Shown piece after piece: positions 1-54,740 of a DNA stretch of 64,000 nucleotides; within the stretch, counting starts at the first letter, position 1, and each line of letters begins with the position of its first letter. This DNA comes from Owenia fusiformis (Eukaryota; Annelida; Polychaeta; Sabellida; Oweniidae): NCBI GenBank assembly GCA_903813345.2, contig CAIIXF020000001.1, positions 25,471,915 through 25,535,914 of the forward strand, written 5' to 3'. The position numbers were made by a program, and so were the translations under genes. The notes beneath the pieces are model-generated. The model saw only the letters and a list, made by a program, of their open reading frames with translations, was not told the DNA's origin and did no database searches.

Positions 1-3000
1 GTAACATCAGTTGCGTCAGCCACTGTAGTTGTGTCAGCAACTGCTGTTGTAACATCAGCCGTTGTTGCATCAGCAACTGTTGTTGTAGCATCAGCTGCAG
101 TTGTGTCAGCCACTGTAGTTGTAGCATCAGCTGCTGTAGTATCTGCCGTAGCTGCGTCAGCCACTGTAGTTGTGTCAGCTACTGTTGTTGTAACATCAGC
201 CGTTGTTGCATCAGCAACTGTTGTTGTAGCATCAGCTGTAGTTGTGTCAGCCACTGTACTTGTAGCATCAGCTGCTGTAGTATCTGCCGTAGTTGCGTCA
301 GCCACTGTAGTTGTGTCAGCAACTGCTGTTGTAACATCAGCCGTTGTTGCATCAGCAACTGTTGTTGTAGCATCAGCTGCAGTTGTGTCAGCCACTGTAG
401 TTGTAGCATCAGCTGCTGTAGTATCTGCCGTAGTTGCGTCAGCCACTGTAGTTGTGTCAGCTACTGTTGTTGTAACATCAGCCGTTGTAACATCAGCAAC
501 TGTTGTTGTAGCATCAGCTGTAGTTGTGTCAGCCACTGTATTTGTAGCATCAGCTGCTGTAGTATCTGCCGTAGTTGCGTCAGCCACTGTAGTTGTGTCA
601 GCAACTGCTGTTGTAACATCAGCCGTTGTTGCATCAGCAACTGTTGTTGTAGCATCAGCTGCAGTTGTGTCAGCCACTTTAGTTGTAGCATCAGCTGCTG
701 TAGTATCTTCGGTAGTTGCATCAGCCACTGTAGTTGTGTCAGCTACTGTTGTTGTAACATCAGCCGTTGTTGCATCAGCAACTGTTGTTGTAGCATCAGC
801 TGCAGTTGGGTCAGCCACTGTAGTTGTAGCATCAGCCGTTGTAACATCAGCAACTGTTGTTGTAGCATCAGCCGTCGTTGCATCAGCAACTGTTGTTGTA
901 ACATCAGCTGCAGTTGTGTCAGCCACTGTAGTTGTAGCATCAGCTGCTGTAGTATCTGCCGTAGTTGTGTCAGCCACTGTAGTTGTGTCAGCTACTGTTG
1001 TTGTAACATCAGCCGTTGTTGCATCAGCAACTGTTGTTGTAGCATCAGCTGTAGTTGTGTCAGCCACTGTACTTGTAGCATCAGCTGCTGTAGTATCTGC
1101 CGTAGTTGCGTCAGCCACTGTAGTTGTGTCAGCAACTGCTGTTGTAACATCAGCCATTGTTGCATCAGCAACTGTTGTTGTAGCATCAGCTGCAGTTGTG
1201 TCAGCCACTGTAATTGTAGCATCAGCTGCTGTAGTATCTGCCGTAGTTGCGTCAGCCACTGTAGTTGTGTCAGCTACTGTTGTTGTAACATCAGCCGCTG
1301 TTGCATCAGCAACTGTTGTTGTAGCATCAGCTGCAGTTGTGTAAGCCACTGTAGTTGTAGCATCAGCTGCTGTAGTATCTGCCGTAGTTGCGTCAGCCAC
1401 TGTAGTTGTGTCAGCTACTGTTGTTGTAACATCAGCCGTTGTAACATCAGCAACTGTTGTTGTAGCATCAGCTGTAGTTGTGTCAGCCACTGTATTTGTA
1501 GCATCAGCTGCTGTAGTATCTGCCGTAGTTGCGTCAGCCACTGTAGTTGTGTCAGCAACTGCTGTTGTAACATCAGCCGTTGTTGCATCAGCAACTGTTG
1601 TTGTAGCATCAGCTGCAGTTGTGTCAGCCACTGTAGTTGTAGCATCAGCTGCTGTAGTATCTTCGGTAGTTGCGTCAGCCACTGTAGTTGTGTCAGCTAC
1701 TGTTGTTGTAACATCAGCCGTTGTTGCATCAGCAACTGTTGTTGTAGCATCAGCTGCAGTTGTGTCAGCCACTGTAGTTGTAGCATCAGCTGCTGTAGTA
1801 TCTGCCGTAGTTGCGTCAGCCACTGTAGTTGTGTCAGCAACTGCTGTTGTAACATCAGCCGTTGTTGCATCAGCAACTGTTGTTGTAGCATCAGCTGCAG
1901 TTGTGTCAGCCACTGTACTTGTAGCATCAGCTGCTGTAGTATCTGCCGTAGTTGCGTCAGCCACTGTAGTTGTGTCAGCTACTGTTGTTGTAACATCAGC
2001 CGTTGTTGCATCAGCAACTGTTGTTTTAGCATCAGCTGTAGTTGTGGCAGCCACTGTACTTGTAGCATCAGCTACTGTAGTATCTGCCGTAGTTGCGTCA
2101 GCCACTGTAGTTGTGTCAGCTACTGTTGTTGTAACATCAGCCGTTGTTGCATCAGCAACTGTTGTTGTAGCATCAGCTGTAGTTGTGTCAGCCACTGTAC
2201 TTGTAGCATCAGCTGCTGTAGTATCTGCCGTAGTTGCGTCAGCCACTGTAGTTGTGTCAGCAACTGCTGTTGTAACATCAGCCGTTGTTGCATCAGCAAC
2301 TGTTGTTGTAGCATCAGCTGCAGTTGTGTCAGCCACTGTAGTTGTAGCATCAGTTGCTGTAGTATCTGCCGTAGTTGCGTCAGCCACTGTAGTTGTGTCA
2401 GCTACTGTTGTTGTAACATCAGCCGTTGTAACATCAGCAACTGTTGTTGTAGCATCAGCTGTAGTTGTGTCAGCCACTGTATTTGTAGCATCAGATGCTG
2501 TAGTATCTGCCGTAGTTGCGTCAGCCACTGTAGTTGTGTCAGCAACTGCTGTTGTAACATCAGCCGTTGTTGCATCAGCAACTGTTGTTGTAGCATCAGC
2601 TGCAGTTGTGTCAGCCACTGTAGTTGTAGCATCAGCTGCTGTAGTATCTTCGGTAGTTGCGTCAGCCACTGTAGTTGTGTCAGCTACTGTTGTTGTAACA
2701 TCAGCCGTTGTTGCATCAGCAACTGTTGTTGTAGCATCAGCTGCAGTTGTGTCAGCCAATGTAGTTGTAGCATCAGCTGCTGTAGTATCTGCCGTAGTTG
2801 CGTCAGCCACTGTAGTTGTGTCAGCAACTGCTGTTGTGTCAGTAACTGCTGTTGTAACATCAGCCGTTGTTGCATCAGCAACTGTTGTTGTAGCATCAGC
2901 TGCAGTTGTGTCAGCCACTGTACTTGTAGCATCAGCTGCTGTAGTATCTGCCGTAGTTGCGTCAGCCACTGTAGTTGTGTCAGCTACTGCTGTTGTAACA

Positions 3001-6000
3001 TCAGTTGCGTCAGCCACTGTAGTTGTGTCAGCAACTGCTGTTGTAACATCAGCCGTTGTTGCATCAGCAACTGTTGTTTTAGCATCAGCTGTAGTTGTGT
3101 CAGCCACTGTACTTGTAGCATCAGCTGCTGTAGTATCTGCCGTAGTTGCGTCAGCCACTGTAGTTGTGTCAGTAACTGCTGTTGTAACATCAGCCGTTGT
3201 TGCATCAGCAACTGTTGTTGTAGCATCAGCTGCAGTTGTGTCAGCCACTGTAGTTGTAGCATCAGCTGCTGTAGTATCTGCCGTAGTTGCGTCAGCCACT
3301 GTAGTTGTGTCAGCAACTGCTGTTGTAACATCAGCCGTTGTTGCATCAGCAACTGTTGTTGTAGCATCAGCTGCAGTTGTATCAGCCACTGTAGTTGTAG
3401 CATCAGCTGCTGTAGTATCTGCCGTAGTTGCGTCAGCCACTGTAGTTGTGTCAGCTACTGTTGTTGTAACATCAGCCGTTGTTGCATCAGCAACTGTTGT
3501 TGTAGCATCAGCTGCAGTTGTGTCAGCCACTGAAGTTGTAGAATCAGCTGCTGTAGTATCTGCCGTAGTTGCGTCAGCCACTGTAGTTGTGTCAGCAACT
3601 GCTGTTGTAACATCAGCCGTTGTTGCATCAGCAACTGTTGTTGTAGCATCAGCTGCAGTAGTGTCAGCCACTGTAGTTGTAGCATCAGCTGCTGTAGTAT
3701 CTACCGTAGTTGCGTCAGCCACTGTAGTTGTGTCAGCAACTGCTGTTGTAACATCAGCCGTTGTTGCATCAGCAACTGTTGTAGCATCAGCTGCAGTTGT
3801 GTCAGCCACTGTAGTTGTAGCATCAGCTGCTGTAGTATCTGCCGTAGTTGCGTCAGCCACTGTAGTTGTGTCAGCAACTGCTGTTGTAACATCAGCCGTT
3901 GTTGCATCAGCAACTGTTGTTGTAGCATCAGCTGCAGTTGTGTCAGCCACTGTAGTTGTAGCATCAGCTGCTGTAGTATCTGCCGTAGTTGCGTCAGCCA
4001 CTGTAGTTGTGTCAGCTACTGTAGTTGTAACGTCAGCCGTTGTTGCACCTGCAACTGTTGTTGTAGCATCAGCTGTAGTTGTGTCAGCCACTGTACTTGT
4101 AGCACCAGCTGCTGTAGTATCTGCCGTAGTTGCGTCAGCCACTGTAGTTGTGTCAGCAACTGCTGTTGTAACATCAGCCGTTGTTGCATCAGCAACTGTT
4201 GTTGTAGCATCAGCTGCAGTTGTGTCAACCACTGTAGTTGTAGCATCAGCTGCTGTAGTATCTGCCATAGTTGGGTCAGCCACTGTAGTTGTGTCAGCTA
4301 CTGTTGTTGTATCATCAGTCGTTGTTGCATCAGCAACTGTTGTTGTAGCATCAGCTGCAGTTGTGTCAGCCACTGTAGTTGTAGCATCAGCTGCTGTAGT
4401 ATCTGCCGTAGTTGCGTCAGCCACTGTAGTTGTGTCAGCAACTGCTGTTGTAACATCAGCCGTTGTTGCATCAGCAACTGTTGTTGTAGCATCAGCTGCA
4501 GTTGTGTCAGCCACTGTAGTTGTAGCATCAGCTGCTGTAGTATCTGCCGTAGTTGCGTCAGACACTGTAGTTGTGTCAGCAACTGCTGTTGTAACATCAG
4601 CCGTTGTTGCATCAGCAACTGTTGTTGTAGCATCAGCTGCAGTTGTGTCAGCCACTGTAGTTGTAGCATCAGCTGCTGTAGTATCTGCCGTAGTTGCGTC
4701 AGCCACTGTAGTTGTGTCAGCTACTGTTGTTGTAACATCAGCCGCTGTTGCATCAGCAACTGTTGTTGTAGCATCAGCTGCAGTTGTGTTAGCCACTGTA
4801 GTTGTAGCATCAGCTGCTGTAGTATCTGCCGTAGTTGCGTCAGCCACTGTAGTTGTGTCAGCTACTGTTAGTGTAACATCAGCCGTTGTTGCATCAGCAA
4901 CTGTTGTTGTAGCATCAGCTGCAGCTGCAGTGGCGTCAGCCACTGTAGTTGTGTCAGCTACTGTTGTTGTAACATCAGCCGCTGTTGCATCAGCAACTGT
5001 TGTTGTAGCATCAGCTGCAGTTGTGTCAGCCACTGTAGTTGTAGCATCAGCTGCTGTAGTATCTGCCGTAGTTGCGTCAGCCACTGTAGTTGTGTCAGCT
5101 ACCGTTAGTGTAACATCAGCCGTTGTTGCATCACCAACTGTTGTTGTAGCATCAGCTGCAGTTGTGTCAGCCACTGTAGTTGTAACATCAGCCGTTGTTG
5201 CATCAGCAACTGTTGTTTTAGCATCAGCTGTAGTTGTGGCAGCCACTGTACTTGTAGCATCAGCTACTGTAGTATCTGCCGTAGTTGCGTCAGCTACTGT
5301 AGTTGTGTCAGTAACTGCTGTTGTAACATCAGCCGTTGTTGCATCAGCAACTGTTGTTGTAACATCAGCCGTTGTTGCATCAGCAACTGTTGTTGTAGCA
5401 TCAGCTGTAGTTGTGTCAGCCACTGTACTTGTAGCATCAGCTGCTGTAGTATCTGCCGTAGTTGCGTCAGCCACTGTAGTTGTGTCAGCTACTGTTAGTG
5501 TAACATCAGCCGTTGTTGCATCAGCAACTGTTGTTGTAGCATCAGCTGCAGTTGTGTAAGCCACTGTAGTTGTAGCATCAGCTGCTGTAGTATCTGCCGT
5601 AGTTGCGTCAGCCACTGTAGTTGTGTCAGCTACTGTTAGTGTAACATCAGCCGTTGTTGCATCAGCAACTGTTGTTGTAGCATCAGCTGCAGTTGTGTCA
5701 GCCACTGTAGTTGTAGCATCAGCTGCTGTAGTATCTGCCGTATTTGCGTCAGCCACTGTAGTTGTGTCAGCAACTGCTGTTGTAACATCAGCCGTTGTTG
5801 CATCAGCAACTGTTGTTGTAGCATCAGCTGCAGTTGTGTCAGCCACTGTAGTTGTAGCATCAGCTGCTGTAGTATCTGCCGTAGTTGCGTCAGCCACTGT
5901 AGTTGTGTCAGCTACTGTTGTTGTAACATCAGCCGCTGTTGCATCAGCAACTGTTGTTGTAGCATCAGCTGCAGTTGTGTCAGCCACTGTAGTTGTAGCA

Positions 6001-9000
6001 TCAGCTGCTGTAGTATCTGCCGTAGTTGCGTCAGCCACTGTAGTTGTGTCAGCTACCGTTAGTGTAACATCAGCCGTTGTTGCATCAGCAACTGTTGTTG
6101 TAGCATCAGCTGCAGTTGTGTCAGCCACTGTAGTTGTAACATCAACCGTTGTTGCATCAGCAACTGTTGCTTTAGCATCAGCTGTAGTTGTGGCAGCCAC
6201 TGTACTTGTAGCATCAGCTACTGTAGTATCTGCCGTAGTTGCGTCAGCCACTGTAGTTGTGTCAGTAACTGCTGTTGTAACATCAGCCGTTGTTGCATCA
6301 GCAACTGTTGTTGTAACATCAGCCGTTAGTGCATCAGCAACTGTTGTTGTAGCATCAGCTGTAGTTGTGTCAGCCACTGTACTTGTAGCATCAGCTGCTG
6401 TAGTATCTGCCGTAGTTGCGTCAGCCACTGTAGTTGTGTCAGCAACTGCTGTTGTAACATCAGCCGTTGTTGCATCAGCAACTGTTGTTGTAGCATCAGC
6501 TGCAGTTGTGTCAGCCACTGTAGTTGTAGCATCAGCTGCTGTAGTATCTGCCGTAGTTGCGTCAGCCACTGTAGTTGTGTCAGCAACTGCTGTTGTAACA
6601 TCAGCCGTTGTTGCATCAGCAACTGTTGTTGTAGCATCAGCTGCAGTTGTGTCAGCCACTGTAGTTGTAGCATCAGCTGCTGTAGTATCTGCCGTAGTTG
6701 CGTCAGCCACTGTAGTTGTGTCAGCAACTGCTGTTGTAACATCAGCCGTTGTTGCATCAGCAACTGTTGTTGTAGCATCAGCTGCAGTTGTGTCAGCCAC
6801 TGTAGTTGTAGCATCAGCTGCTGTAGTATCTGCCGTAGTTGCGTCAGCCACTGTAGTTGTGTCAGCTACTGTTGTTGTAACATCAGCCGTTGTTGCATCA
6901 GCAACTGTTGTTGTAGCATCAGCTGTAGTTGTGTCAGCCACTGTACTTGTAGCATCAGCTGCTGTAGTATCTGCCGTAATTGCGTCAGCCACTGTAGTTG
7001 TGTCAGCAACTGCTGTTGTAACATCAGCCGTTGTTGCATCAGCAACTGTTGTTGTAGCATCAGCTGCAGTTGTGTCAGCCACTGTAGTTGTAGCATCAGC
7101 TGCTGTAGTATCTGCCGTAGTTGCGTCAGCCACTGTAGTTGTGTCAGCTACTGTTGTTGTAACATCAGCCGTTGTAACATCAGCAACTGTTGTTGTAGCA
7201 TCAGCTGTAGTTGTGTCAGCCACTGTATTTGTAGCATCAGCTGCTGTAGTATCTGCCGTAGTTGCATCAGCCACTGTAGTTGTGTCAGCAACTGCTGTTG
7301 TAACATCAGCCGTTGTTGCATCAGCAAGTGTTGTTGTAGCATCAGCTGCAGTTGTGTCAGCCACTGTAGTTGTAGCATCAGCTGCTGTAGTATCTTCGGT
7401 AGTTGCGTCAGCCACTGTAGTTGTGTCAGCTACTGTTGTTGTAACATCAGCCGTTGTTGCATCAGCAACTGTTGTTGTAGCATCAGCTGCAGTTGTGTCA
7501 GCCACTGAAGTTGTAGAATCAGCTGCTGTAGTATCTGCCGTAGTTGCGTCAGCCACTGTAGTTGTGTCAGCAACTGCTGTTGTAACTTCAGCCGTTGTTG
7601 CATCAGCAACTGTTGTTGTAGCATCAGCTGCAGTTGTGTCAGCCACTGTAGTTGTAGCATCAGCTGCTGTAGTATCTGCCGTAGTTGCGTCAGCCACTGT
7701 AGTTGTGTCAGCAACTGCTGTTGTAACATCAGCCGTTGTTGCATCAGCAACTGTTGTAGCATCAGCTGCAGTTGTGTCAGCCACTGTAGTTGTAGCATCA
7801 GCTGCTGTAGTATCTGCCGTAGTTGCGTCAGCCACTGTAGTTGTGTCAGCAACTGCTGTTGTAACATCAGCCGTTGTTGCATCAGCAACTGTTGTTGTAG
7901 CATCAGCTGCAGTTGTGTCAGCCACTGTAGTTGTAGCATCAGCTGCTGTAGTATCTGCCGTAGTTGCGTCAGCCACTGTAGTTGTGTCAGCTACTGTTGT
8001 TGTAACATCAGCCGTTGTTGCATCAGCAACTGTTGTTGTAACATCAGCTGTAGTTGTGTCAGCCACTGTACTTGTAGCATCAGCTGCTGTAGTATCTGCC
8101 GTAGTTGCGTCAGCCACTGTAGTTGTGTCAGCAACTGCTGTTGTAACATCAGTCGTTGTTGCATCAGCATCTGTTGTTGTAGCATCAGCTGCAGTTGTGT
8201 CAGCCACTGTAGTTGTAGCATCAGCTGCTGTAGTATCTGCCGTAGTTGCGTCAGCCACTGTAGTTGTGTCAGCTACTGTTGTTGTAACATCAGCCGTTGT
8301 TGCATCAGCAACTGTTGTTGTAGCATCAGCTGCAGTTGTGTCAGCCACTGTAGTTGTAGCATCAGCTGCTGTAGTATCTGCCGTAGTTGCGTCAGCCACT
8401 GTAGTTGTGTCAGCAACTGCTGTTGTAACATCAGCCGTTGTTGCATCAGCAACTGTTGTTGTAGCATCAGCTGCAGTTGTGTCAGCCACTGTAGTTGTAG
8501 CATCAGCTGCTGTAGTATCTGCCGTAGTTGCGTCAGCCACTGTAGTTGTGTCAGCTACTGCTGTTGTAACATCAGTTGCGTCAGCCACTGTAGTTGTGTC
8601 AGCAACTGCTGTTGTAACATCAGCCGTTGTTGCATCAGCAACTGTTGTTTTAGCATCAGCTGTAGTTGTGTCAGCCACTGTACTTGTAGCATCAGCTGCT
8701 GTAGTATCTGCCGTAGTTGCGTCAGCCACTGTAGTTGTGTCAGCAACTGCTGTTGTAACATCAGCCGTTGTTGCATCAGCAACTGTTGTTGTAGCATCAG
8801 CTGCAGTTGTGTCAGCCACTGTAGTTGTAGCATCAGCTGCTGTAGTATCTGCCGTAGTTGCGTCAGCCACTGTAGTTGTGTCAGCAACTGCTGTTGTAAC
8901 ATCAGCCGTTGTTGCATCAGCAACTGTTGTTGTAGCATCAGCTGCAGTTGTGTCAGCCACTGTAGTTGTAGCATCAGCTGCTGTAGTATCTGCCGTAGTT

Positions 9001-12000
9001 GCGTCAGCCACTGTAGTTGTGTCAGCTACTGTTGTTGTAACATCAGCCGTTGTTGCATCAGCAACTGTTGTTTTAGCATCAGCTGTAGTTGTGTCAGCCA
9101 CTGTACTTGTAGCATCAGCTGCTGTAGTATCTGCCTTAGTTGCGTCAGCCACTGTAGTTGTGTCAGTAACTGCTGTTGTAACATCAGCCGTTGTTGCATC
9201 AGCAACTGTTGTTGTAACATCAGCCGTTGTTGCATCAGCAACTGTTGTTGTAGCATCAGCTGTAGTTGTGTCAGCCACTGTACTTGTAGCATCAGCTGCT
9301 GTAGTATCTGCCGTAGTTGCGTCAGCCACTGTAGTTGTGTCAGCAACTGCTGTTGTAACATCAGCCGTTGTTGCATCAGCAACTGTTGTTGTAGCATCAG
9401 CTGCAGTTGTGTCAGCCACTGTAGTTGTAGCATCAGCTGCTGTAGTATCTGCCGTAGTTGCGTCAGCCACTGTAGTTGTGTCAGCTACTGTTGTTGTAAC
9501 ATCAGCCGTTGTTGCATCAGCAACTGTTGTTGTAGCATCAGCTGTAGTTGTGTCAGCCACTGTACTTGTAGCATCAGCTGCTGTAGTATCTGCCATAGTT
9601 GCGTCAGCCACTGTAGTTGTGTCAGCAACTGCTGTTGTAACATCAGCCGTTGTTGCATCAGCAACTGTTGTTGTAGCATCAGCTGCAGTTGTGTCAGCCA
9701 CTGTAGTTGTAGCATCAGCTGCTGTAGTATCTGCCGTAGTTGCGTCAGCCACTGTAGTTGTGTCAGCTACTGTTGTTGTAACATCAGTCGTTGTTGCATC
9801 AGCAACTGTTGTTGTAGCATCAGCTGCAGTTGTGTCAGCCACTGTAGTTGTAGCATCAGCTGCTGTAGTATCTGCCGTAGTTGCGTCAGCCACTGTAGTT
9901 GTGTCAGCAACTGCTGTTGTAACATCAGCCGTTGTTGCATCAGCAACTGTTGTTGTAGCATCAGCTGCAGTTGTGTCAGCCACTGTAGTTGTAGCATCAG
10001 CTGCTGTAGTATCTGCCGTAGTTGCGTCAGACACTGTAGTTGTGTCAGCAACTGCTGTTGTAACATCAGCCGTTGTTGCATCAGCAACTGTTGTTGTAGC
10101 ATCAGCTGCAGTTGTGTCAGCCACTGTAGTTGTAGCATCAGCTGCTGTAGTATCTGCCGTAGTTGCGTCAGCCACTGTAGTTGTGTCAGCTACTGTTGTT
10201 GTAACATCAGCCGCTGTTGCATCAGCAACTGTTGTTGTAGCATCAGCTGCAGTTGTGTAAGCCACTGTAGTTGTAGCATCAGCTGCTGTAGTATCTGCCG
10301 TAGTTGCGTCAGCCACTGTAGTTGTGTCAGCTACTGTTAGTGTAACATCAGCCGTTGTTGCATCAGCAACTGTTGTTGTAGCATCAGCTGCAGTTGTGTC
10401 TGCCACTGTAGTTGTAGCATCAGCTGCTGTAGTATCTGCCGTAGTTGCGTCAGCCACTGTAGTTGTGTCAGCAACTGCTGTTGTAACATCAGCCGTTGTT
10501 GCATCAGCAACTGTTGTTGTAGCATCAGCTGCAGTTGTGTCAGCCACTATAGTTGTAGCATCAGCTGCTGTAGTATCTGCCGTAGTTGCGTCAGCCACTG
10601 TAGTTGTGTCAGCTACTGTTGTTGTAACATCAGCCGCTGTTGCATCAGCAACTGTTGTTGTAGCATCAGCTGCAGTTGTGTCAGCCACTGTAGTTGTAGC
10701 ATCAGCTGCTGTAGTATCTGCCGTAGTTGCGTCAGCCACTGTAGTTGTGTCAGCTACCGTTAGTGTAACATCAGCCGTTGTTGCATCAGCAACTGTTGTT
10801 GTAGCATCAGCTGCAGTTGTGTCAGCCACTGTAGTTGTAACATCAGCCGTTGTTGCATCAGCAACTGTTGTTTTAGCATCAGCTGTAGTTGTGGCAACCA
10901 CTGTACTTGTAGCATCAGCTACTGTAGTATATGCCGTAGTTGCGTCAGCCACTGTAGTTGTGTCAGTAACTGCTGTTGTAACATCAGCCGTTGTTGCATC
11001 AGCAACTGTTGTTGTAACATCAGCCGTTGTTGCATCAGCAACTGTTGTTGTAGCATCAGCTGTAGTTGTGTCAGCCACTGTACTTGTAGCATCAGCTGCT
11101 GTAGTATCCGCCGTAGTTGCGTCAGCCACTGTAGTTGTGTCAGCAACTGCTGTTGTAACATCAGCCGTTGTTGCATCAGCAACTGTTGTTGTAGCATCAG
11201 CTGCAGTTGTGTCAGCCACTGTAGTTGTAGCATCAGCTGCTGTAGTATCTGCCGTAGTTGCGTCAGCCACTGTAGTTGTGTCAGCAACTGCTGTTGTAAC
11301 ATCAGCCGTTGTTGCATCAGCAACTGTTGTTGTAGCATCAGCTGCAGTTGTGTCAGCCACTGTAGTTGTAGCATCAGCTGCTGTAGTATCTGCCGTAGTT
11401 GCGTCAGCCACTGTAGTTGTGTCAGCTACTGTTGTTGTAACATCAGCCGTTGTTGCATCAGCAACTGTTGTTGTAGCATCAGCTGCAGTTGTGTCAGCCA
11501 CTGAAGTTGTAGCATCAGCTGCTGTAGTATCTGCCGTAGTTGCGTCAGCCACTGTAGTTGTGTCAGCAACTGCTGTTGTAACATCAGCCGTTGTTGCATC
11601 AGCAACTGTTGTTGTAGCATCAGCTGCAGTTGTGTCAGCCACTGTAGTTGTAGCATCAGCTGCTGTAGTATCTGCCGTAGTTGCGTCAGCCACTGTAGTT
11701 GTGTCAGCAACTGCTGTTGTAACATCAGCCGTTGTTGCATCAGCAACTGTTGTAGCATCAGCTGCAGTTGTGTCAGCCACTGTAGTTGTAGCATCAGCTG
11801 CTGTAGTATCTGCCGTAGTTGCGTCAGCCACTGTAGTTGTGTCAGCAACTGCTGTTGTAACATCAGCCGTTGTTGCATCAGCAACTGTTGTTGTAGCATC
11901 AGCTGCAGTTGTGTCAGCCACTGTAGTTGTAGCATCAGCTGCTGTAGTATCTGCCGTAGTTGCGTCAGCCACTGTAGTTGTGTCAGCAACTGCTGTTGTA

Positions 12001-42000: not shown

Positions 42001-45000
42001 TTGTTGCATCAGCAACTGTTGTTGTAGCATCAGCTGCAGTTGTGTCAGCCACTGTAGTTGTAGCATCAGCTGCTGTAGTATCTGCCGTAGTTGCGTCAGC
42101 CACTGTAGTTGTGTCAGCAACTGCTGTTGTAACATCAGCCGTTGTTGCATCAGCAACTGTTGTTGTAGCATCAGCTGCAGTTGTGTCAGCCACTGTAGTT
42201 GTAGCATCAGCTGCTGTAGTATCTGCCGTAGTTGCGTCAGCCACTGTAGTTGTGTCAGCAACTGCTGTTGTAACATCAGCCGTTGTTGCATCAGCAACTG
42301 TTGTTGTACCATCAGCTGCAGTTGTGTCAGCCACTGTAGTTGTAGCATCAGCTGCTGTAGTATCTGCCGTAGTTGCGTCAGCCACTGTAGTTGTGTCAGC
42401 AACTGCTGTTGTAACATCAGCCGTTGTTGCATCAGCAACTGTTGTTGTAGCATCAGCTGCAGTTGTGTCAGCCACTGTAGTTGTAGCATCAGCTGCTGTA
42501 GTATCTGCCGTAGTTGCGTCAGCCACTGTAGTTGTGTCAGCTATTGTTGTTGTAACATCAGCCGTTGTTGCATCAGCAACTGTTGTTGTAGCATCAGCTG
42601 CAGTTGTGTCAGCCACTGAAGTTGTAGCATCAGCTGCTGTAGTATCTGCCGTAGTTGCGTCAGCCACTGTAGTTGTGTCAGCAACTGCTGTTGTAACATC
42701 AGCCGTTGTTGCATCAGAAACTGTTGTTGTAGCATCAGCTGCAGTTGTGTCAGCCACTGTAGTTGTAGCATCAGCTGCTGTAGTATCTGCCGTAGTTGCG
42801 TCAGCCACTGTAGTTGTGTCAGCAACTGCTGTTGTAACATCAGCCGTTGTTGCATCAGCAACTGTTGTAGCATCAGCTGCAGTTGTGTCAGCCACTGTAG
42901 TTGTAGCATCAGCTGCTGTAGTATCTGCCGTAGTTGCGTCAGCCACTGTAGTTGTGTCAGCAACTGCTGTTGTAACATCAGCCGTTGTTGCATCAGCAAC
43001 TGTTGTTGTAGCATCAGCTGCAGTTGTGTCAGCCACTGTAGTTGTAGCATCAGCTGCTGTAGTATCTGCCGTAGTTGCGTCAGCCACTGTAGTTGTGTCA
43101 GCTACTGTTGTTGTAACGTCAGCCGTTGTTGCACCTGCAACTGTTGTTGTAGCATCAGCTGTAGTTGTGTCAGCCACTGTACTTGTAGCATCAGCTGCTG
43201 TAGTATCTGCCGTAGTTGCTTCAGCCACTGTAGTTGTGTCAGCAACTGCTGTTGTAACATCAGCCGTTGTTGCATCAGCAACTGTTGTTGTAGCATCAGC
43301 TGCAGTTGTGTCAGCCACTGTAGTTGTAGCATCAGCTGCTGTAGTATCTGCCGTAGTTGGGTCAGCCACTGTAGTTGTGTCAGCTACTGTTGTTGTAACA
43401 TCAGTCGTTGTAGCATCAGCAACTGTTGTTGTAGCATCAGCTGCAGTTGTGTCAGCCACTGTAGTTGTAGCATCAGCTGCTGTAGTATCTGCCGTAGTTG
43501 CGTCAGCCACTGTAGTTGTGTCAGCAACTGCTGTTGTAACATCAGCCGTTGTTGCATCAGCAACTGTTGTTGTAGCATCAGCTGCAGTTGTGTCAGCCAC
43601 TGTAGTTGTAGCATCAGTTGCTGTAGTATCTGCCGTAGTTGCGTCAGCCACTGTAGTTGTGTCAGCAACTGCTGTTGTAACATCAGCCGTTGTTGCATCA
43701 GCAACTGTTGTTGTAGCATCAGCTGCAGTTGTGTCAGCCACTGTAGTTGTAGCATCAGCTGCTGTAGTATCTTCGGTAGTTGCGTCAGCCACTGTAGTTG
43801 TGTCAACTACTGTTGTTGTAACATCAGCCGTTGTTGCATCAGCAACTGTTGTTGTAGCATCAGCTGCAGTTGTGTCAGCCACTGAAGTTGTAGCATCAGC
43901 TGCTGTAGTATCTGCCGTAGTTGCGTCAGCCACTGTAGTTGTGTCAGCAACTTCTGTTGTAACATCAGCCGTTGTTGCATCAGCAACTGTTGTTGTAGCA
44001 TCAGCTGCAGTTGTGTCAGCCACTGTAGTTGTAGCATCAGCTGCTGTAGTATCTGCCGTAGTTGCGTCAGCCACTGTAGTTGTGTCAGCAACTGCTGTTG
44101 TAACATCAGCCGTTGTTGCATCAGTAACTGTTGTAGCATCAGCTGCAGTTGTGTCAGCCACTGTAGTTGTAGCATCAGCTGCTGTAGTATCTGCCGTAGT
44201 TGCGTCAGCCACTGTAGTTGTGTCAGCAACTGCTGTTGTAACATCAGCCGTTGTTGCATCAGCAACTGTTGTTGTAGCATCAGCTGCAGTTGTGTCAGCC
44301 ACTGTAGTTGTAGCATCAGCTGCTGTAGTATCTGCCGTAGTTGCGTCAGCCACTGTAGTTGTGTCAGCAACTGCTGTTGTAACATCAGCCGTTGTTGCAT
44401 CAGTAACTGTTGTAGCATCAGCTGCAGTTGTGTCAGCCACTGTAGTTGTAGCATCAGCTGCTGTAGTATCTGCCGTAGTTGCGTCAGCCACTGTAGTTGT
44501 GTCAGCAACTGCTGTTGTAACATCAGCCGTTGTTGCATCAGCAACTGTTGTTGTAGCATCAGCTGCAGTTGTGTCAGCCACTGTAGTTGTAGCATCAGCT
44601 GCTGTAGTATCTGCCGTAGTTGCGTCAGCCACTGTAGTTGTGTCAGCTACTGTTGTTGTAACATCAGCCATTGTTGCATCAGCAACTGTTGTTGTAGCAT
44701 CAGCTGTAGTTGTGTCAGCCACTGTAGTTGTAGCATAAGCTGCTGTAGTATCTGCCGTAGTTGCGTCAGCCACTGTAGTTGTGTCAGCAACTGCTGTTGT
44801 AACATCAGCCGTTGTTGCATCAGCAACTGTTGTTGTAGCATCAGTTGCAGTTGTGTCAGCCACTGTAGTTGTAGCATCAGCTGCTGTAGTATCTGCCGTA
44901 GTTGCGTCAGCCACTGTAGTTGTGTCAGCAACTGCTGTTGTAACATCAGCCGTTGTTGCATCAGCAACTGTTGTTGTAGCATCAGCTGCAGTTGTGTCAG

Positions 45001-48000
45001 CCACTGTACTTGTAGCATCAGCTGCTGTAGTATCTGCTGTAGTTGCGTCAGCCACTGTAGTTGTGTCAGCAACTGCTGTTGTAACATCACCCGTCGTTGC
45101 ATCAGCAACTGTTGTTGTAGCATCAGCTGCAGTTGTGTCAGCCACTGTAGTTGTAGCATCAGCTGCTGTAGTATCTGCCGTAGTTGCGTCAGCCACTGTA
45201 GTTGTGTCAGCTACTGTTGTTGTAACGTCAGCCGTTGTTGCATCAGCAACTGTTGTTGTAGCATCAGCTGTAGTTGTGTCAGCCACTGTAGTTGTAGCAT
45301 CAGCTGCTGTAGTATCTGCCGTAGTTGCGTCAGCCACTGTAGTTGTGTCAGCAACTGCTGTTGTAACATCAGCCGTTGTTGCATCAGCAACTGTTGTTGT
45401 AGCATCAGCTGCAGTTGTGTCAGCCACTGTAGTTGTAGCATCAGCTGCTGTAGTATCTGCCGTAGTTGCGTCAGCCACTGTAGTTGTGTCAGCTACTGTT
45501 GTTGTAACATCAGTCGTTGTTGCATCAGCAACTGTTGTTGTAGCATCAGCTGCAGTTGTGTCAGCCACTGTAGTTGTAGCATCAGCTGCTGTAGTATCTG
45601 CCGTAGTTGCGTCAGGCACTGTAGTTGTGTCAGCAACTGCTGTTGTAACATCAGCCGTTGTTGCATCAGCAACTGTTGTTGTAGCATCAGCTGCAGTTGT
45701 GTCAGCCACTGTAGTTGTAGCATCAGCTGATGTAGTATCTGCCGTAGTTGCGTCAGCCACTGTAGTTGTGTCAGCAACTGCTGTTGTAACATCAGCCGTG
45801 GTTGCATCAGCAACTGTTGTTGTAGCATCAGCTGCAGTTGTGTCAGCCACTGTAGTTGTAGCATCAGCTGCTGTAGTATCTGCCGTAGTTGCGTCAGCCA
45901 CTGTAGTTGTGTCAGCTACTGTTGTTGTAACATCAGCCGTTGTTGCATCAGCAACTGTTGTTTTAGCATCAGCTGTAGTTGTGTCAGCCACTGTACTTGT
46001 AGCATCAGCTGCTGTAGTATCTGCCGTAGTTGCGTCAGCCACTGTAGTTGTGTCAGCAACTGCTGTTGTAACATCAGCCGTTGTTGCATCAGCAACTGTT
46101 GTTGTAGCATCAGCTGTAGTTGTGTCAGCCACTGTAGTTGTAGCATCAGCTGCTGTAGTATCTGCCGTAGTTGCGTCAGCCACTGTAGTTGTGTCAGCAA
46201 CTGCTGTTGTAACATCAGCCGTTGTTGCATCAGCAACTGTTGTTGTAGCATCAGCTGCAGTTGTGTCAGCCACTGTAGTTGTAGCATCAGCTGCTGTAGT
46301 ATCTGCCGTAGTTGCGTCAGCCACTGTAGTTGTGTCAGCAACTGCTGTTGTAACATCAGCCGTTGTTGCATCAGCAACTGTTGTTGTAGCATCAGCTGCA
46401 GTTGTGTCAGCCACTGTAGTTGTAGCATCAGCTGCTGTATTATCTGCCGTAGTTGCGTCAGCCACTGTAGTTGTGTCAGCAACTGCTGTTGTAACATCAG
46501 CCGTTGTTGCATCAGCAACTGTTGTTGTAGCATCAGCTGCAGTTGTGTCAGCCACTGTAGTTGTAGCATCAGCTGCTGTAGTATCTGCCGTAGTTGCGTC
46601 AGCCACTGTAGTTGTGTCAGCTACTGTTGTTGTAACATCAGCCGTTGTTGCATCAGCAACTGTTGTTGTAGCATCAGCTGTAGTTGTGTAAGCCACTGTA
46701 CTTGTAGCATCAGCTGCTGTAGTATCTGCCATAGTTGCGTCAGCCACTGTAGTTGTGTCAGCAAATGCTGTTGTAACATCAGCCGTTGTTGCATCAGCAA
46801 CTGTTGTTGTAGCATCAGCTGCAGTTGTGTCAGCCACTGTAGTTGTAGCATCAGCTGCTGTAGTATCTGCCGTAGTTGCGTCAGCCACTGTAGTTGTGTC
46901 AGCTACTGTTGTTGTAACATCAGCCGTTGTAACATCAGCAACTGTTGTTGTAGCATCAGCTGTAGTTGTGTCAGCCACTGTATTTGTAGCATCAGCTGCT
47001 GTAGTATCTGCCGTAGTTGCGTCAGCCACTGTAGTTGTGTCAGCAACTGCTGTTGTAACATCAGCCGTTGTTGCATCAGCAACTGTTGTTGTAGCATCAG
47101 CTGTAGTTGTGTCAGCCACTGTAGTTGTAGCATCAGCTGCTGTAGTATCTGCCGTAGTTGCGTCAGCCACTGTAGTTGTGTCAGCAACTGCTGTTGTAAC
47201 ATCAGCCGTTGTTGCATCAGCAACTGTTGTTGTAGCATCAGCTGCAGTTGTGTCAGCCACTGTAGTTGTAGCATCAGCTGCTGTAGTATCTGCCGTAGTT
47301 GCGTCAGCCACTGTAGTTGTGTCAGCAACTGCTGTTGTAACATCAGCCGTTGTTGCATCAGCAACTGTTGTTGTAGCATCAGCTGCAGTTGTGTCAGCCA
47401 CTGTAGTTGTAGCATCAGCTGCTGTATTATCTGCCGTAGTTGCGTCAGCCACTGTAGTTGTGTCAGCAACTGCTGTTGTAACATCAGCCGTTGTTGCATC
47501 AGCAACTGTTGTTGTAGCATCAGCTGCAGTTGTGTCAGCCACTGTAGTTGTAGCATCAGCTGCTGTAGTATCTGCCGTAGTTGCGTCAGCCACTGTAGTT
47601 GTGTCAGCTACTGTTGTTGTAACATCAGCCGTTGTTGCATCAGCAACTGTTGTTGTAGCATCAGCTGTAGTTGTGTAAGCCACTGTACTTGTAGCATCAG
47701 CTGCTGTAGTATCTGCCATAGTTGCGTCAGCCACTGTAGTTGTGTCAGCAAATGCTGTTGTAACATCAGCCGTTGTTGCATCAGCAACTGTTGTTGTAGC
47801 ATCAGCTGCAGTTGTGTCAGCCACTGTAGTTGTAGCATCAGCTGCTGTAGTATCTGCCGTAGTTGCGTCAGCCACTGTAGTTGTGTCAGCTACTGTTGTT
47901 GTAACATCAGCCGTTGTAACATCAGCAACTGTTGTTGTAGCATCAGCTGTAGTTGTGTCAGCCACTGTATTTGTAGCATCAGCTGCTGTAGTATCTGCCG

Positions 48001-51000
48001 TAGTTGCGTCAGCCACTGTAGTTGTGTCAGCAACTGCTGTTGTAACATCAGCCGTTGTTGCATCAGCAACTGTTGTTGTAGCATCAGCTGCAGTTGTGTC
48101 AGCCACTGTAGTTGTAGCATCAGCTGCTGTAGTATCTTCGGTAGTTGCGTCAGCCACTGTAGTTGTGTCAACTACTGTTGTTGTAACATCAGCCGTTGTT
48201 GCATCAGCAACTGTTGTTGTAGCATCAGCTGCAGTTGTGTCAGCCACTGAAGTTGTAGCATCAGCTGCTGTAGTATCTGCCGTAGTTGCGTCAGCCACTG
48301 TAGTTGTGTCAGCAACTGCTGTTGTAACATCAGCCGTTGTTGCATCAGCAACTGTTGTTGTAGCATCAGCTGCAGTTGTGTCAGCCACTGTAGTTGTAGC
48401 ATCAGCTGCTGTAGTATCTGCCGTAGTTGCGTCAGCCACTGTAGTTGTGTCAGCAACTGCTGTTGTAACATCAGCCGTTGTTGCATCAGTAACTGTTGTA
48501 GCATCAGCTGCAGTTGTGTCAGCCACTGTAGTTGTAGCATCAGCTGCTGTAGTATCTGCCGTAGTTGCGTCAGCCACTGTAGTTGTGTCAGCAACTGCTG
48601 TTGTAACATCAGCCGTTGTTGCATCAGCAACTGTTGTTGTAGCATCAGCTGCAGTTGTGTCAGCCACTGTAGTTGTAGCATCAGCTGCTGTAGTATCTGC
48701 CGTAGTTGCGTCAGCCACTGTAGTTGTGTCAGCTACTGTTGTTGTAACATCAGCCGTTGTTGCATCAGCAACTGTTGTTGTAGCATCAGCTGTAGTAGTG
48801 TCAGCCACTGTAGTTGTAGCATCAGCTGCTGTAGTATCTGCCGTAGTTGCGTCAGCCACTGTAGTTGTGTCAGCAACTGCTGTTGTAACATCAGCCGTTG
48901 TTGCATCAGCAACTGTTGTTGTAGCATCAGTTGCAGTTGTGTCAGCCACTGTAGTTGTAGCATCAGCTGCTGTAGTATCTGCCGTAGTTGCGTCAGCCAC
49001 TGTAGTTGTGTCAGCAACTGCTGTTGTAACATCAGCCGTTGTTGCATCAGCAACTGTTGTTGTAGCATCAGCTGCAGTTGTGTCAGCCACTGTACTTGTA
49101 GCATCAGCTGCTGTAGTATCTGCTGTAGTTGCGTCAGCCACTGTAGTTGTGTCAGCAACTGCTGTTGTAACATCACCCGTCGTTGCATCAGCAACTGTTG
49201 TTGTAGCATCAGCTGCAGTTGTGTCAGCCACTGTAGTTGTAGCATCAGCTGCTGTAGTATCTGCCGTAGTTGCGTCAGCCACTGTAGTTGTGTCAGCTAC
49301 TGTTGTTGTAACGTCAGCCGTTGTTGCATCAGCAACTGTTGTTGTAGCATCAGCTGTAGTTGTGTCAGCCACTGTACTTGTAGCATCAGCTGCTGTAGTA
49401 TCTGCCGTAGTTGCGTCAGGCACTGTAGTTGTGTCAGCAACTGCTGTTGTAACATCAGCCGTTGTTGCATCAGCAACTGTTGTTGTAGCATCAGCTGCAG
49501 TTGTGTCAGCCACTGTAGTTGTAGCATCAGCTGATGTAGTATCTGCCGTAGTTGCGTCAGCCACTGTAGTTGTGTCAGCAACTGCTGTTGTAACATCAGC
49601 CGTGGTTGCATCAGCAACTGTTGTTGTAGCATCAGCTGCAGTTGTGTCAGCCACTGTAGTTGTAGCATCAGCTGCTGTAGTATCTGCCGTAGTTGCGTCA
49701 GCCACTGTAGTTGTGTCAGCTACTGTTGTTGTAACATCAGCCGTTGTTGCATCAGCAACTGTTGTTGTAGCATCAGCTGTAGTTGTGTCAGCCACTGTAC
49801 TTGTAGCATCAGCTGCTGTAGTATCTGCCGTAGTTGCGTCAGCCACTGTAGTTGTGTCAGTAACTGCTGTTGTAACATCAGCCGTTGTTGCATCAGCAAC
49901 TGTTGTTGTAGCATCAGCCGTTGTTGCATCAGCAACTGTTGTTGTAGCATCAGCTGTAGTTGTGTCAGCCACTGTACTTGTAGCATCAGCTGCTGTAGTA
50001 TCTGCCGTAGTTGCGTCAGCCACTGTAGTTGTGTCAGCAACTGCTGTTGTAACATCAGCCGTTGTTGCATCAGCAACTGTTGTTGTAGCATCAGCTGCAG
50101 TTGTGTCAGCCACTGTAGTTGTAGCATCAGCTGCTGTAGTATCTGCCGTAGTTGCGTCAGCCACTGTAGTTGTGTCAGCAACTGCTGTTGTAACATCAGC
50201 CGTTGTTGCATCAGCAACTGTTGTTGTAGCATCAGCTGCAGTTGTGTCAGCCACTGTAGTTGTAGCATCAGCTGCTGTAGTATCTGCCGTAGTTGCGTCA
50301 GCCACTGAAGTTGTGTCAGCTACTGTTGTTGTAACATCAGCCGTTGTTGCATCAGCAACTGTTGTTGTAGCATCAGCTGTAGTTGTGTCAGCCACTGTAC
50401 TTGTAGCATCAGCTGCTGTAGTATCTGCCGTAGTTGCGTCAGCCACTGTAGTTGTGTCAGCAACTGCTGTTGTAACATCAGCCGTTGTTGCATCAGCAAC
50501 TGTTGTTGTAGCATCAGCTGCAGTTGTGTCAGCCACTGTAGTTGTAGCATCAGCTGCTGTAGTATCTGCCGTAGTTGCGTCAGCCACTGTAGTTGTGTCA
50601 GCTACTGTTGTTGTAACATCAGCCGTTGTTGCATCAGCAACTGTTGTTGTAGCATCAGCTGCAGTTGTGCCAGCCACTCTAGTTGTAGCATCAGCTGCTG
50701 TAGTATCTGCCGTAGTTGCGTCAGCCACTGTAGTTGTGTCAGCAACTGCTGTTGTAACATCAGCCGTTGTTGCATCAGCAACTGTTGTTGTAGCATCAGC
50801 TGCAGTTGTGTCAGCCACTGTAGTTGTAGCATCAGCTGCTGTAGTATCTGCCGTAGTTGCGTCAGCCACTGTAGTTGTATCAGCAACTGCTGTTGTAACA
50901 TCAGCCGTCGTTGCATCAGCAACTGTTGTTGTAGCATCAGCTGCAGTTGTGTCAGCCACTGTAGTTGTAGCATCAGCTGCTGTAGTATCTGCCGTAGTTG

Positions 51001-51404
51001 CGTCAGCCACTGTAGTTGTGTAAGCTACTGTTGTTGTAACATCAGCCGTTGTTGCATCAGCAACTGTTGTTGTAGCATCAGCTGCAGTTGTGTCAGCCAC
51101 TGTAGTTGTAGCATCAGCTGCTGTAGTATCTGCCGTTGTTGCGTCAGCCACTGTAGTTGTGTCAGCAACTGCTGTTGTAACATCAGCCGTTGTTGCATCA
51201 GCAACTGTTGTTGTAGCATCAGCTGCAGTTGTGTCAGCCACTGTAGTTGTAGCATCAGCTGCTGTAGTATCTGCCATAGTTGCGTCAGCCACTGTAGTTG
51301 TGTCAGCTACTGTTGTTGTAACATCAGCCGTTGTTGCATCAGCAACTGTTGTTGTAGCATCAGCTGTAGTTGTGTCAGCCACTGTAGTTGTAGCATCAGC
51401 CATT
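1..51404 (-). CDS. Giant T/A/D/V repeat-coding exon (about 364 units of 47 residues), open at window start
   Basis: Seen: one minus-strand frame reads without a stop from 51,404 to 23,066 and again from 22,678 to 1, about 17,000 codons. Each 47-codon unit is eight blocks of five to seven residues such as ATTAD, TTTVAD, VTTAVAD and TTAAD, giving about 19 Thr, 15 Ala, 8 Asp and 5 Val. It has no aromatic residue and no Cys. Rare variants bring in Ser, Glu, Gly, Lys, Asn, Tyr, His, Pro or Ile. Length variants are multiples of three except in one indel cluster at 22,676-23,066. Inferred: a secreted, strongly acidic, probably disordered or O-glycosylated mucin-like or matrix protein. The dense Thr offers O-glycosylation sites and the Asp could bind cations, but no catalytic or binding domain is visible. 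No named family recognised. The C-terminus lies outside the window. Confidence 0.75.
17115..23004. repeat. Copy 1 of a near-identical 5.9-kb segment of the array
   Basis: Matches 23,198-29,087 at a constant offset of 6,083 bases. Private variants are shared in the same order, for example GCATTAGCTG at 17,308 and 23,391, ACGTAAGCC at 18,398 and 24,481, and the GTCAGTCACTGTACTT block near 20,810 and 26,895. The only difference I noticed inside is the missing T at 22,679. Boundaries are approximate because the flanks are repeats too. Confidence 0.8.
22676..23066 (-). other. Cluster of four single-base indels breaking the giant frame
   Basis: Compared with neighbouring units, plus-strand sequence lacks one T near 22,679 (GTTGTGTAGC instead of GTTGTTGTAGC) and has extra bases at about 23,004 (GCATTCAG), 23,059 (GCTAACTG) and 23,065 (GCTTGTTG). 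The three insertions together restore frame; the deletion leaves a net shift. Read literally, the protein stops at 23,057 and the remaining 22.7 kb would be cut off. No other frame-breaking indel exists in the array, and the cluster lies at the joint of a near-identical 5.9-kb duplication. I therefore favour an assembly or consensus error over a real lesion. Confidence 0.7.
23198..29087. repeat. Copy 2 of the near-identical 5.9-kb segment
   Basis: Second member of the pair starting at about 17,115. About 190 bp of array sequence with three extra bases separates the copies. It is either a very recent tandem duplication of about 42 units or a false duplication made during assembly. Confidence 0.8.
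30500..33900. repeat. Copy 1 of a roughly 3.4-kb higher-order block
   Basis: Aligns with 35.3-38.7 kb at an offset of 4,779, changing to 4,782 after a 3-bp deletion near 31,735 (GTTGTTGTGTCAGCC in copy 1). Shared private variants include GATGTGTCAGC (31,713 and 36,492), GAAGCATCAGC (31,767 and 36,549) and GTCAGCTATTGTTG (33,357 and 38,139). Limits are approximate. Confidence 0.65.
35280..38700. repeat. Copy 2 of the roughly 3.4-kb higher-order block
   Basis: Partner of the block at 30.5-33.9 kb. Related but older versions of parts of this block also occur near 13.1-16.6 kb: the variant GCATGAGCAAC is shared by 13,358 and 29,593, and a quintet of like units is shared by 15.05, 30.88 and 35.66 kb. 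Confidence 0.6.
40087..41532. repeat. 723-bp tandem duplication (two copies)
   Basis: Copies at about 40,087-40,809 and 40,810-41,532. Both carry GCAATTGTGTCAGCTACTG (about 40,257 and 40,980), a 138-bp short unit, and GTTGCGTCAGTCACTG at the end (about 40,803 and 41,526). The period is five units plus 18 bp, still a multiple of three. Confidence 0.75.
44640..49640. repeat. Dispersed pair of multi-unit blocks sharing rare variants
   Basis: Sequence around 44.65-45.20 kb recurs at 48.73-49.29 kb (offset 4,086), shown by CATCACCCGTCG at 45,085 and 49,171. Sequence around 45.6-45.8 kb recurs at 49.4-49.6 kb (offset 3,804), shown by GCGTCAGGCACTG (45,609 and 49,413) and CAGCTGATGTAG. The offset difference of 282 bp equals one dimer lost or gained between them. 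Confidence 0.65.
46100..48080. repeat. 987-bp (seven-unit) tandem duplication
   Basis: Two adjacent copies at an offset of exactly 987 bp share rare variants: GTGTAAGCC (46,687 and 47,674), GTCAGCAAATGCTG (46,758 and 47,745) and GTAACATCAGCAAC with TATTTGTAG (about 46,930-46,985 and 47,917-47,972). Outer limits are approximate. Confidence 0.75.
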
Positions 51405-51524
51405 CTAAATAGGTAGGTGAATAAAAATAAATATAATTGCACCCTTGTCTTTAATACACAAGTATGAGTTAGATGAAAGTACGTAATCATAAAAATATAT
51501 GACCGTAGTCCGATATTTAATGAC
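51405..51524 (-). other. 120-bp non-repeat segment, probable small intron 2
   Basis: The segment interrupts the repeats and is unlike them in composition. Its 3' end on the minus strand (pyrimidine/AT-rich, ...CACCTACCTATTTAG) is a good acceptor, followed by AATGGCTGATGC. A GT at 51,523-51,524 gives a matching phase (2) but is a poor donor. The length is a multiple of three and the segment is open, so if retained it inserts about 40 residues with hydrophobic patches such as VQLYLFLFTYLF. An alternative reading is a recent insertion, or that the ATG at 51,403 is a second translation start. Confidence 0.45.
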
Positions 51525-52335
51525 AAAGTAGTATCTGCCGTAGTTGCGTCAGCCACTGAAGTTATGTAAGCAACTGTTGTTCTAACATTAGCCGTTTTTG
51601 CATCAGCAGCTGTTGTTGTAGCATTATCTGTAGTTGTATCAGCCAGTATAGTTGAAGCATAAGCTGCTGTTGTATCTGCCGTAGTTGCGTCAGTCACTGT
51701 AGTTGTGTCAGCTACTGTTGAAATAGCATCAGTTGTGTTTATGTCAGTCACTGTAGTCGTGTCAGCCATTATACTTGTAGCATCAGCTCCTGTAGTATTT
51801 GCCGTCGTTGCGTCAGCCTCTGTAGTTGTGACAGCCACTGTACTTGTGGCATAAGCTCCTGTAGAATAAGCCGTAGTTGAGTCAGCCACTGTAGTTATGT
51901 AAGCAACTGTTGTAGCATTAGCCGCTGTTGTATCAGCAAATGCTTTGGTTGCATCAGCTGTAGTTGTTTCAACCACTGTAGTTGTAACACACAATGCTGT
52001 AGTATCTGCCGCCGTTGCCTCATCCACTGTCGTTGTGTCAGCCACTGTAGTTGCTGCCTCAGCTGCTGCTGTATCTGCCGTAGTATCTTGAGCCACTGTA
52101 GCTGTGTCAGCTGCTGTTGTTGTAACATCAGCTGTTGTAACATCAACAAAATGTGCAGTAGCATCAGATGTAATTGTATCAGCCACTGTAGTTGTAGTGT
52201 CAGCCGCTGTATCTGCCGTAGTTGAGTAAGCCACTGTAGTTGTGTCAGCAACCGTTGTTGTAGCATCAGCTGTAGTTTTGTTGTCCACAGCTTCTCTTCG
52301 AAATCTTTTGTAAAACTTATGAGGAGCATACTTTT
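51525..52335 (-). CDS. Exon 2: furin-like site and diverged N-terminal T/A/D/V repeats
   Basis: Seen: about 269 codons in the same frame as the main array. It opens with a basic stretch ending KRFRR then EAVDNK, matching the R-X-(K/R)-R rule for furin-type convertases, then passes into about five and a half decayed copies of the 47-residue unit. These keep the TT..AD rhythm but carry many private substitutions (Ser, Tyr, Ile, Glu, Asn, Lys, His, one Cys). Sequons occur (NKT right after the RFRR site; NTT, NAT further on). Inferred: cleavage after RFRR would release the acidic repeat region from the basic N-terminal part. The divergence fits the edge of an array that escapes unequal-crossover homogenisation. 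A GTG at 52,288 in this frame is not a credible start. The 3' boundary is uncertain because the proposed donor (TT|GTCATT) is weak. Confidence 0.6.
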
Positions 52336-52356
52336 CTGAAATTATAAGAGAAGTGG
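52336..52356 (-). other. Splice acceptor before the repeat-coding exon
   Basis: Minus strand shows a pyrimidine-rich stretch (CCACTTCTCTTATAATTTCAG) ending in CAG at 52,336-52,338. Exon 2 begins at 52,335 with two bases that complete a codon started in exon 1. An in-frame TAA lies just upstream, so the repeat frame cannot simply extend further without splicing. Confidence 0.6.
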
Positions 52357-52849
52357 TTTGACAATATTAATATCAAAGTGTGAGTCCTTTTGAATGTTTT
52401 TAGTCACTGGTCAACAGACAGATTGTGTTCCCTTTTTATACAATATATTGTACCTTGTGTAGAGAATATAATATACTAGTTTATTGAATTTGAGCTATGT
52501 GATGGATAGAACATTTTATTTTGAATTGGTAAAAATTACCTACTTGTTACATTATGTTATGATATTGTTATATTTTACCTGATATAAATACACAATATAA
52601 ACCTGATTAAAAAAAGTTGGGAAGTTAATCATTTGTCTTGGCAAATGCATTTTTATTAGGTACTCGACCGGTCACAAAACCCAAATTCAAATGGAATACT
52701 AATGTATCTTTACTCCTTTTGTTAGATTACGGGTTACTTAGATGAGAACGGGATAAAAACAGGATAATCGTCTATGTATTATGGTGTGAATGCCGTAATC
52801 CAATACTTTACACATATGGCCTTCGTGACCAACTATAAAACGCTTATCG

Positions 52850-54712: not shown

Positions 54713-54740
54713 TGACAGTTTCACATGTCTATGCTAAATT

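Follow-up and report, generated by a model that had tools for sequence, protein, structure and literature searches.

A 47-codon repeat array in Owenia fusiformis as the probable main exon encoding a giant, mucin-like, membrane-anchored surface protein

The transmembrane (TM) mucins of vertebrates (MUC4, MUC12, MUC16 and others) have a TM helix followed by a cytoplasmic tail, and secreted gel-forming mucins combine a large repeat domain, exported by the secretory route, with Cys-rich VWD/cystine-knot ends. Among other proteins of biased composition, acidic shell-matrix proteins of the Aspein/Asprich type are Asp-rich and of low complexity, and antifreeze glycoproteins are built of Ala-Ala-Thr repeats. 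Here we describe a tandem array that fills, on the minus strand, the first 52 kb of a 64,000-nucleotide (nt) stretch of the genome of the annelid Owenia fusiformis (termed here the window; C1:25471915-25535914, where C1 is contig CAIIXF020000001.1 of assembly GCA_903813345.2). With a probability of about 0.7, this array in our reading makes up the main exon of one of three related genes (gene 1), whose product is a polyanionic, mucin-like surface protein of giant size and type I transmembrane topology. The predicted composition, anchoring and layout of the product match those of a tethered mucin (i.e., Thr-rich, extended and negatively charged, with one TM helix and a tail), and it probably works like one, though we do not assign it to any vertebrate mucin family.

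The repeat unit of the array measures 141 bp, or 47 codons, and reads as eight words of 5-7 codons, each terminated by Asp: ATTTVAD TTAAD ATTTVAD ATTAD VTTAVAD TTTVAD ATTAD TTAAD. In two clean blocks of the translated window (9,440 and 7,552 codons), Thr, Ala, Asp and Val account for 98.5% and 98.2% of residues, respectively, with 16.7% Asp and no stops in either, so that the 47-residue minus-strand units and the one Asp in about six described by a first-pass annotation of the window are both borne out. Followed from its start on the minus strand, the frame passes through about 250 codons of diverged repeats in which it is kept (51530..52290), then a 126-bp non-repeat stretch that interrupts the array and is stop-free in frame (51404..51529), and then the homogenised array of eight-word units (1..51403). 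The 126-bp stretch, which shows an acceptor-like TTTAG and, by eye, a poor donor, may be a small intron or a coding insert; if it were random sequence, the chance of its being both a multiple of three in length and stop-free would be about 0.017, and it matched nothing but itself in the C1 and C6 stretches examined (C6 being the contig that carries gene 3, below). Of the limits first given to the array (1..52335), the right one proved to be exactly a predicted splice acceptor; the left one is merely the edge of the window, and the array continues for about 15 kb beyond it in the assembly. Exon 2, whose part in the window spans 1..52335 on the minus strand, extends to window coordinate -15651 (C1:25456263).

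Beyond the window, the frame runs through diverged repeats into GITDEFAGVVITSTVAAGGGIFIFASLCCGVCIFFIRKRRKHENEE..., a TM helix, a basic stop-transfer sequence and a tail, with the stop codon of gene 1 at C1:25456263. The gene-1 helix, GGGIFIFASLCCGVCIFFI (window hydropathy 2.32, computed for gene 1), is followed by RKRRK and about 100 residues. A single TM helix with a cytoplasmic tail, as in a transmembrane mucin, is thus present, and its sequence is kept in genes 2 and 3. The product had been taken for a secreted protein: the signal-peptide-like first exon agrees with that description, but simple secretion is not supported, since the frame ends in a helix and tail conserved in three genes. 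The adhesive or mineral-binding role that was also proposed gained no support.

At the other end, exon 1 (63429..63813, minus strand; 128 codons plus one base) encodes a signal-peptide-like start and a basic prosegment and ends in phase 1 at the donor AATG/GTAAGT (slash at the exon end). The putative signal peptide covers approximately the first 24 residues (63742..63813, minus strand), with a hydrophobic core, LSIIFWLIGFLS, near the first Met whose 12-residue Kyte-Doolittle mean is 2.3. The predicted intron 1 (52336..63428, minus strand; 11,093 bp) has GT...AG ends in phase 1/1 and the same layout in gene 2, and the array frame opens at 52335 after TTTCAG, in the phase that matches exon 1, reading EKYAPHKFYKRFRREAVDNKTTADA. 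There, between the basic prosegment (25 Lys+Arg versus 7 Asp+Glu; computed isoelectric point, pI, 10.4) and the acidic repeats (pI 4.05, likewise computed), lies RFRR (52295..52306, minus strand, coordinates hand-counted from 52335), which we take to be a furin-like cleavage motif and which is kept as RFRR in gene 2. Exon 1 was the only candidate in the real flank to combine a phase-1 GT[AG]AG donor with a hydrophobic core; among 600 dinucleotide-shuffled flanks, phase-1-donor exons of at least 100 codons arose in four and ones with a comparable core in none, under a search rule set after exon 1 had been seen. A similarity of exon 1 to CDC50 (E 0.012-0.018) consisted of weak local pieces and was set aside as chance.

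Both gene ends recur in the genome (498.3 Mb in 525 contigs), which was searched with exon 1 and with the tail as queries, scoring the best candidates only. Exon 1 was found in at least three places (from five candidates) and the tail in at least five (also from five), namely three full tails and two short fragments past gene 1, and these places pair up as at least three genes, a lower bound because only the best candidates were scored. Gene 2 (C1:25601086-25541152), a tandem neighbour just upstream of gene 1 on the same strand, would encode about 17,230 residues. Its exon 1 is homologous to that of gene 1, its donor and acceptor phase are the same, and KRFRR and an array of 50 kb lead to a TM helix and tail that are nearly identical to those of gene 1. 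Its unit is likewise 47 codons long, four of which differ from the gene-1 unit, and in its larger clean block (C1:25557154-25592314, 35 kb) 234 of the 245 exact-47-codon units equal the consensus (two double-length spans dropped), a uniformity that may reflect recent homogenisation or an assembly effect. Gene 3 lies on C6, with its tail at C6:29111077-29111499 (71% identity) and its exon 1 at C6:29154470-29154075 (49% identity); between the two, the stretch read, which extends up to C6:29135000, holds over 23 kb of repeat. The gene-3 unit is only 12 residues long, ATTTDATTTVTD, but follows the same word grammar as gene 1 (5-7 residues, ending in Asp), and its commonest residues are Thr (3,230), Asp (1,023), Ala (878) and Val (678) of 6,299 codons. 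Its frame stays open for 6,505 codons including the tail. One-step departures within this repeat comprise 723 synonymous and 624 non-synonymous changes, with 478 synonymous expected, a purely descriptive comparison, given that the copies share ancestry and that multi-step codons were omitted. Further upstream, two stretches of identical sequence, 1,614 bp apart (C6 about 29130592 and 29132206), bring stops into the gene-3 frame and by eye can be read as putative short GT-AG introns in a frame-keeping phase; because the two are identical, a repeat-plus-intron cassette seems to have been duplicated.

The ends of these genes are under purifying selection. Between genes 1 and 2, the ratio of non-synonymous to synonymous substitution rates (dN/dS) is 0.38 for exon 1 plus the junction (Fisher p 2e-4), 0.108 for the TM helix plus tail (p 3e-6) and 0.294 for the last 155 codons (p 4e-4), which add a faster stretch before the helix. 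Gene 3 gives 0.162 for the helix and tail against each of genes 1 and 2, at a dS of about 1.0. Of all parts measured, constraint is tightest on the helix and tail (dN/dS 0.11-0.16), which suggests that the anchored form of the protein matters.

Several observations weigh against the reading of the array as the main exon encoding a mucin-like surface protein, and we consider them here together with the alternative explanations. In the assembly, the frames of both genes on C1 are broken by single-base indels. In gene 1, four such changes, three of them insertions and one a deletion (22670..23080, minus strand; read by eye against neighbouring units), separate a stop-to-stop frame of 9,769 codons (52366-23057) from a second that starts at about 22,685, leaves the window and remains open for 12,778 codons until it ends in the TM helix, tail and stop. 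What had been described as a single 52-kb frame is therefore a minus-strand array, but not an unbroken frame, given this patch at 22.67-23.08 kb; the array, in turn, is interrupted by the 126-bp non-repeat stretch. If the indels are real, the gene-1 product stops after about 9,887 residues and has no anchor. An indel also breaks the frame of human MUC19, for which one report (PMC13345508) gives no complete frame in any of its long-read haplotypes, so that a real lesion in a giant mucin gene would have precedent. Genes 1 and 2 might accordingly be pseudogenes, disabled recently by their four and three single-base indels, with the C6 gene the sole working copy, but we consider this improbable. 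Spacings of the Ala-Asp motif at the gene-1 break are 23, 52 and 20 bases rather than multiples of three, and irregular spacings number only 3 of 3,172 in gene 1 and 3 of 2,467 in gene 2, confined to patches of 0.4 and 2.8 kb, respectively. Both patches are interior and each change in them can be read as a one-base run lengthened or shortened; the three one-base insertions of gene 2, all within its 2.8 kb, sum to a frame-neutral +3. Moreover, both halves around the gene-1 break lead to conserved gene ends, and the ends of genes 1 and 2 are intact and under the purifying selection described above. The breaks in both genes are probably assembly (consensus) errors. With 67,987 nt in exon 2, the total coding length of gene 1 is 68,372 nt, a multiple of three plus 2, which is the excess that the net of four indels predicts. 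If they are assembly errors, the protein has 22,789 residues: giant, as first claimed, but longer than the 17,000 or more residues then estimated. Its size also has precedent: for the largest human exon, that of MUC12, alleles with as many as 23,080 predicted residues are reported (PMC13345508). The predicted ectodomain, counted with about 400 nt at the break left out and the 126-bp stretch read through, comprises 22,385 residues with 9,066 Thr (40.5%), 3,727 Asp (16.6%), 3,757 Asp+Glu, 52 Lys+Arg and 3 Cys, and has a mass of 2.1 MDa before sugars.

Variation within the gene-1 array looks neutral at the amino-acid level: distinct synonymous one-step variants in the window number 28 against 27.3 expected by mutation class (5 multi-step variants dropped), and the diverged start has 18 against 21.3 (9 multi-step codons dropped). 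Neutral-looking variation would suit a non-coding satellite, as would the high homogeneity of the arrays, in which exact repeats reach 1,107 bp and gene-2 units are 99.97% identical to their consensus; such a satellite would be open only by virtue of a unit that is a multiple of three (3n) and of codons that cannot mutate to stops in one step. No single substitution turns an ACN, GCN, GAY or GTN codon into a stop. Because the codons used cannot reach a stop in one step and a 3n unit copies the frame along with itself, the open frame alone is weak evidence, and in the diverged start simulated neutral change leaves no stop in 52% of runs, for which reason we rejected the absence of stops there (P 0.52) as evidence of coding. 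The evidence that counts is frame preservation, gene ends and paralogues. If indels arise at 0.05-0.15 per substitution and three quarters of them are not 3n, 8 to 25 frame-changing indels would be expected, and the 122 distinct variants plus the 97 nucleotide differences of the diverged start from the array consensus (51535-52290) are accompanied by none outside the single patch. The eight words of the unit have diverged from one another mainly at third positions, a deep bias (7 of 9 minimal changes, p 0.008); by our reading, the open frame of the plus strand has the same third positions, yet it holds 38 stops across 1-52335, and plus-strand coding was rejected. The array is joined in phase to a conserved exon 1, RFRR, TM helix and tail in paralogues, and the C6 array, though built differently, retains the frame and the same commonest residues. 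Constraint is thus evident both on the reading frame and at the gene ends, and a satellite is very improbable; frame, gene ends and paralogues instead support the earlier description of a giant, low-complexity, acidic protein with a mucin-like composition. Its likeness to mucins has limits of its own, since the ectodomain holds only 182 Ser and 30 Pro, unlike typical Pro/Thr/Ser (PTS) domains of mucins, and neither a Pfam domain above cut-off (SEA included, in the exon-1 and tail pieces scanned) nor a homologue of exon 1 or tail in the protein database was found. The protein could also be coding and giant but shed, its ectodomain cut near the membrane and set free as a polymer of mucus, tube, cuticle or matrix, with the anchor a mere transport step. 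A composition that suits a free polyanion, together with the signal-like exon and RFRR, is compatible with such a fate, but the strongest constraint measured falls on the helix and tail, and no cleavage domain such as SEA was found in the 162 C-terminal residues; we regard shedding as unlikely, though it deserves more weight than either a disabled gene or a satellite.

For the membrane-anchored, mucin-like protein that we favour, the layout suggests how it might be made. If the gene is transcribed and spliced as predicted, the signal peptide would direct the protein to the endoplasmic reticulum, and the basic prosegment (pI 10.4) would travel with the acidic repeats (pI 4.05) and could neutralise them in transport until a furin-type protease cuts at RFRR. 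The place of this prosegment before a furin-like site suggests a detachable counter-charge. The remaining rod of about 22,500 residues, Thr-rich and Asp-spaced, probably O-glycosylated and disordered, and anchored by one helix, would form a hydrated glycocalyx or brush of great length and negative charge; through its cytoplasmic tail, which is conserved, it may be linked to sorting or to the cytoskeleton. An AlphaFold prediction for 188 repeat residues from a single sequence (mean predicted local distance difference test score, pLDDT, 42) gave no usable model or confident fold, which is consistent with disorder in the modelled fragment but does not prove it.

Among described proteins, the vertebrate transmembrane mucins come closest, sharing with the predicted protein a signal-like start, a Thr-rich tandem repeat in one giant exon, a TM helix, a cytoplasmic tail and a similar size. 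Unlike them, it is almost devoid of Ser and Pro, has one Asp in six and bears a basic prosegment ending in RFRR; no sequence similarity to them was found, nor did the pieces scanned show a SEA or EGF domain, the 162 C-terminal residues giving a single Pfam match that was sub-cut-off and unrelated. With secreted gel-forming mucins it shares a large repeat domain and the predicted secretory route, but it has 3 Cys in 22,385 ectodomain residues, a TM anchor and no Pfam match to a VWD-type or cystine-knot domain at either end in the pieces scanned. Like the Aspein/Asprich proteins it is Asp-rich and of low complexity, but its Asp amounts to only 16.6%, occurs singly among Thr and Ala, and belongs to a membrane-anchored protein. 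Thr and Ala dominate in it as in antifreeze glycoproteins, but they form Asp-ended words of 5-7 residues rather than an Ala-Ala-Thr repeat. Neither exon 1 nor the tail gave a protein or structure match of weight that would indicate homology to a known mucin, and matches to the Pfam families Peptidase_M91 and RTE1 fell far below cut-off. A degenerate DNA pattern of the repeat had no matches in the genome-contig and viral-contig collections. The sole database protein to match the repeat at E<=0.001 among the 8,000 candidates with the most shared words, which were those scored (P0001, 404 residues, E 1.9e-4) has an ADATA-type run amid unlike sequence and was dismissed as a chance match. Among the titles and abstract openings that literature searches of open-licence papers listed, none describes this protein. 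Giant repeat exons in mucins are of a known kind, but the Ser/Pro-poor, Asp-regular, prosegment-bearing form differs, and because Ser and Pro are nearly absent, Asp is regular, a prosegment is present and no SEA or EGF domain appears in the pieces scanned, we do not file the family under any vertebrate mucin family. Tentatively, and with less confidence than we place in the gene itself, these genes might represent an independently evolved class of giant tethered mucin, in which acidic Thr-Ala-Asp-Val words replace Pro/Thr/Ser, the unit turns over completely (47 versus 12 residues) while frame, composition and tail persist, and a detachable basic prosegment supplies the counter-charge for packing a polyanion with thousands of charges.

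Other features were noted in and around gene 1. Within the predicted intron 1, a short minus-strand open frame (window 59456-59698) matches DUF7042 below cut-off (E 0.026; score 14.9, cut-off 27) and is possibly a gene fragment. An element of about 130 bp (window 53668-53798) has copies, mostly 92-99% identical, on many scaffolds (lower-bound counts), where two copies often lie in inverted orientation within about 0.8 kb of each other, and resembles the termini of a small DNA transposon. Directly past the gene-1 stop, partial copies of the last 35 or so tail codons (C1:25455951-25456055 and C1:25456108-25456209) are a small tandem duplication of the gene end. Farther out, two long plus-strand open frames (C1:25446076-25449766; window -25838 to -22148) resemble, by eye, the endonuclease and reverse transcriptase of a non-LTR (long terminal repeat) element. 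A minus-strand open frame at C1:25425007-25425603 (window -46907 to -46311) contains a Sushi domain (PF00084, E 9e-7, above cut-off), and another secreted or surface gene may therefore lie nearby.

Arrays of this kind risk being dismissed as satellite DNA. If our reading of the locus is correct, its product would rank among the largest predicted animal proteins, and its main exon among the largest coding exons, and the family would have arrived independently at a mucin-like surface coat that is giant and tethered. Its three members would also constitute a natural experiment, with conserved ends and an unconserved repeat unit, whose comparison lets one ask what a low-complexity domain of this kind needs when its exact sequence is free to vary: length, charge, Thr density or word grammar.

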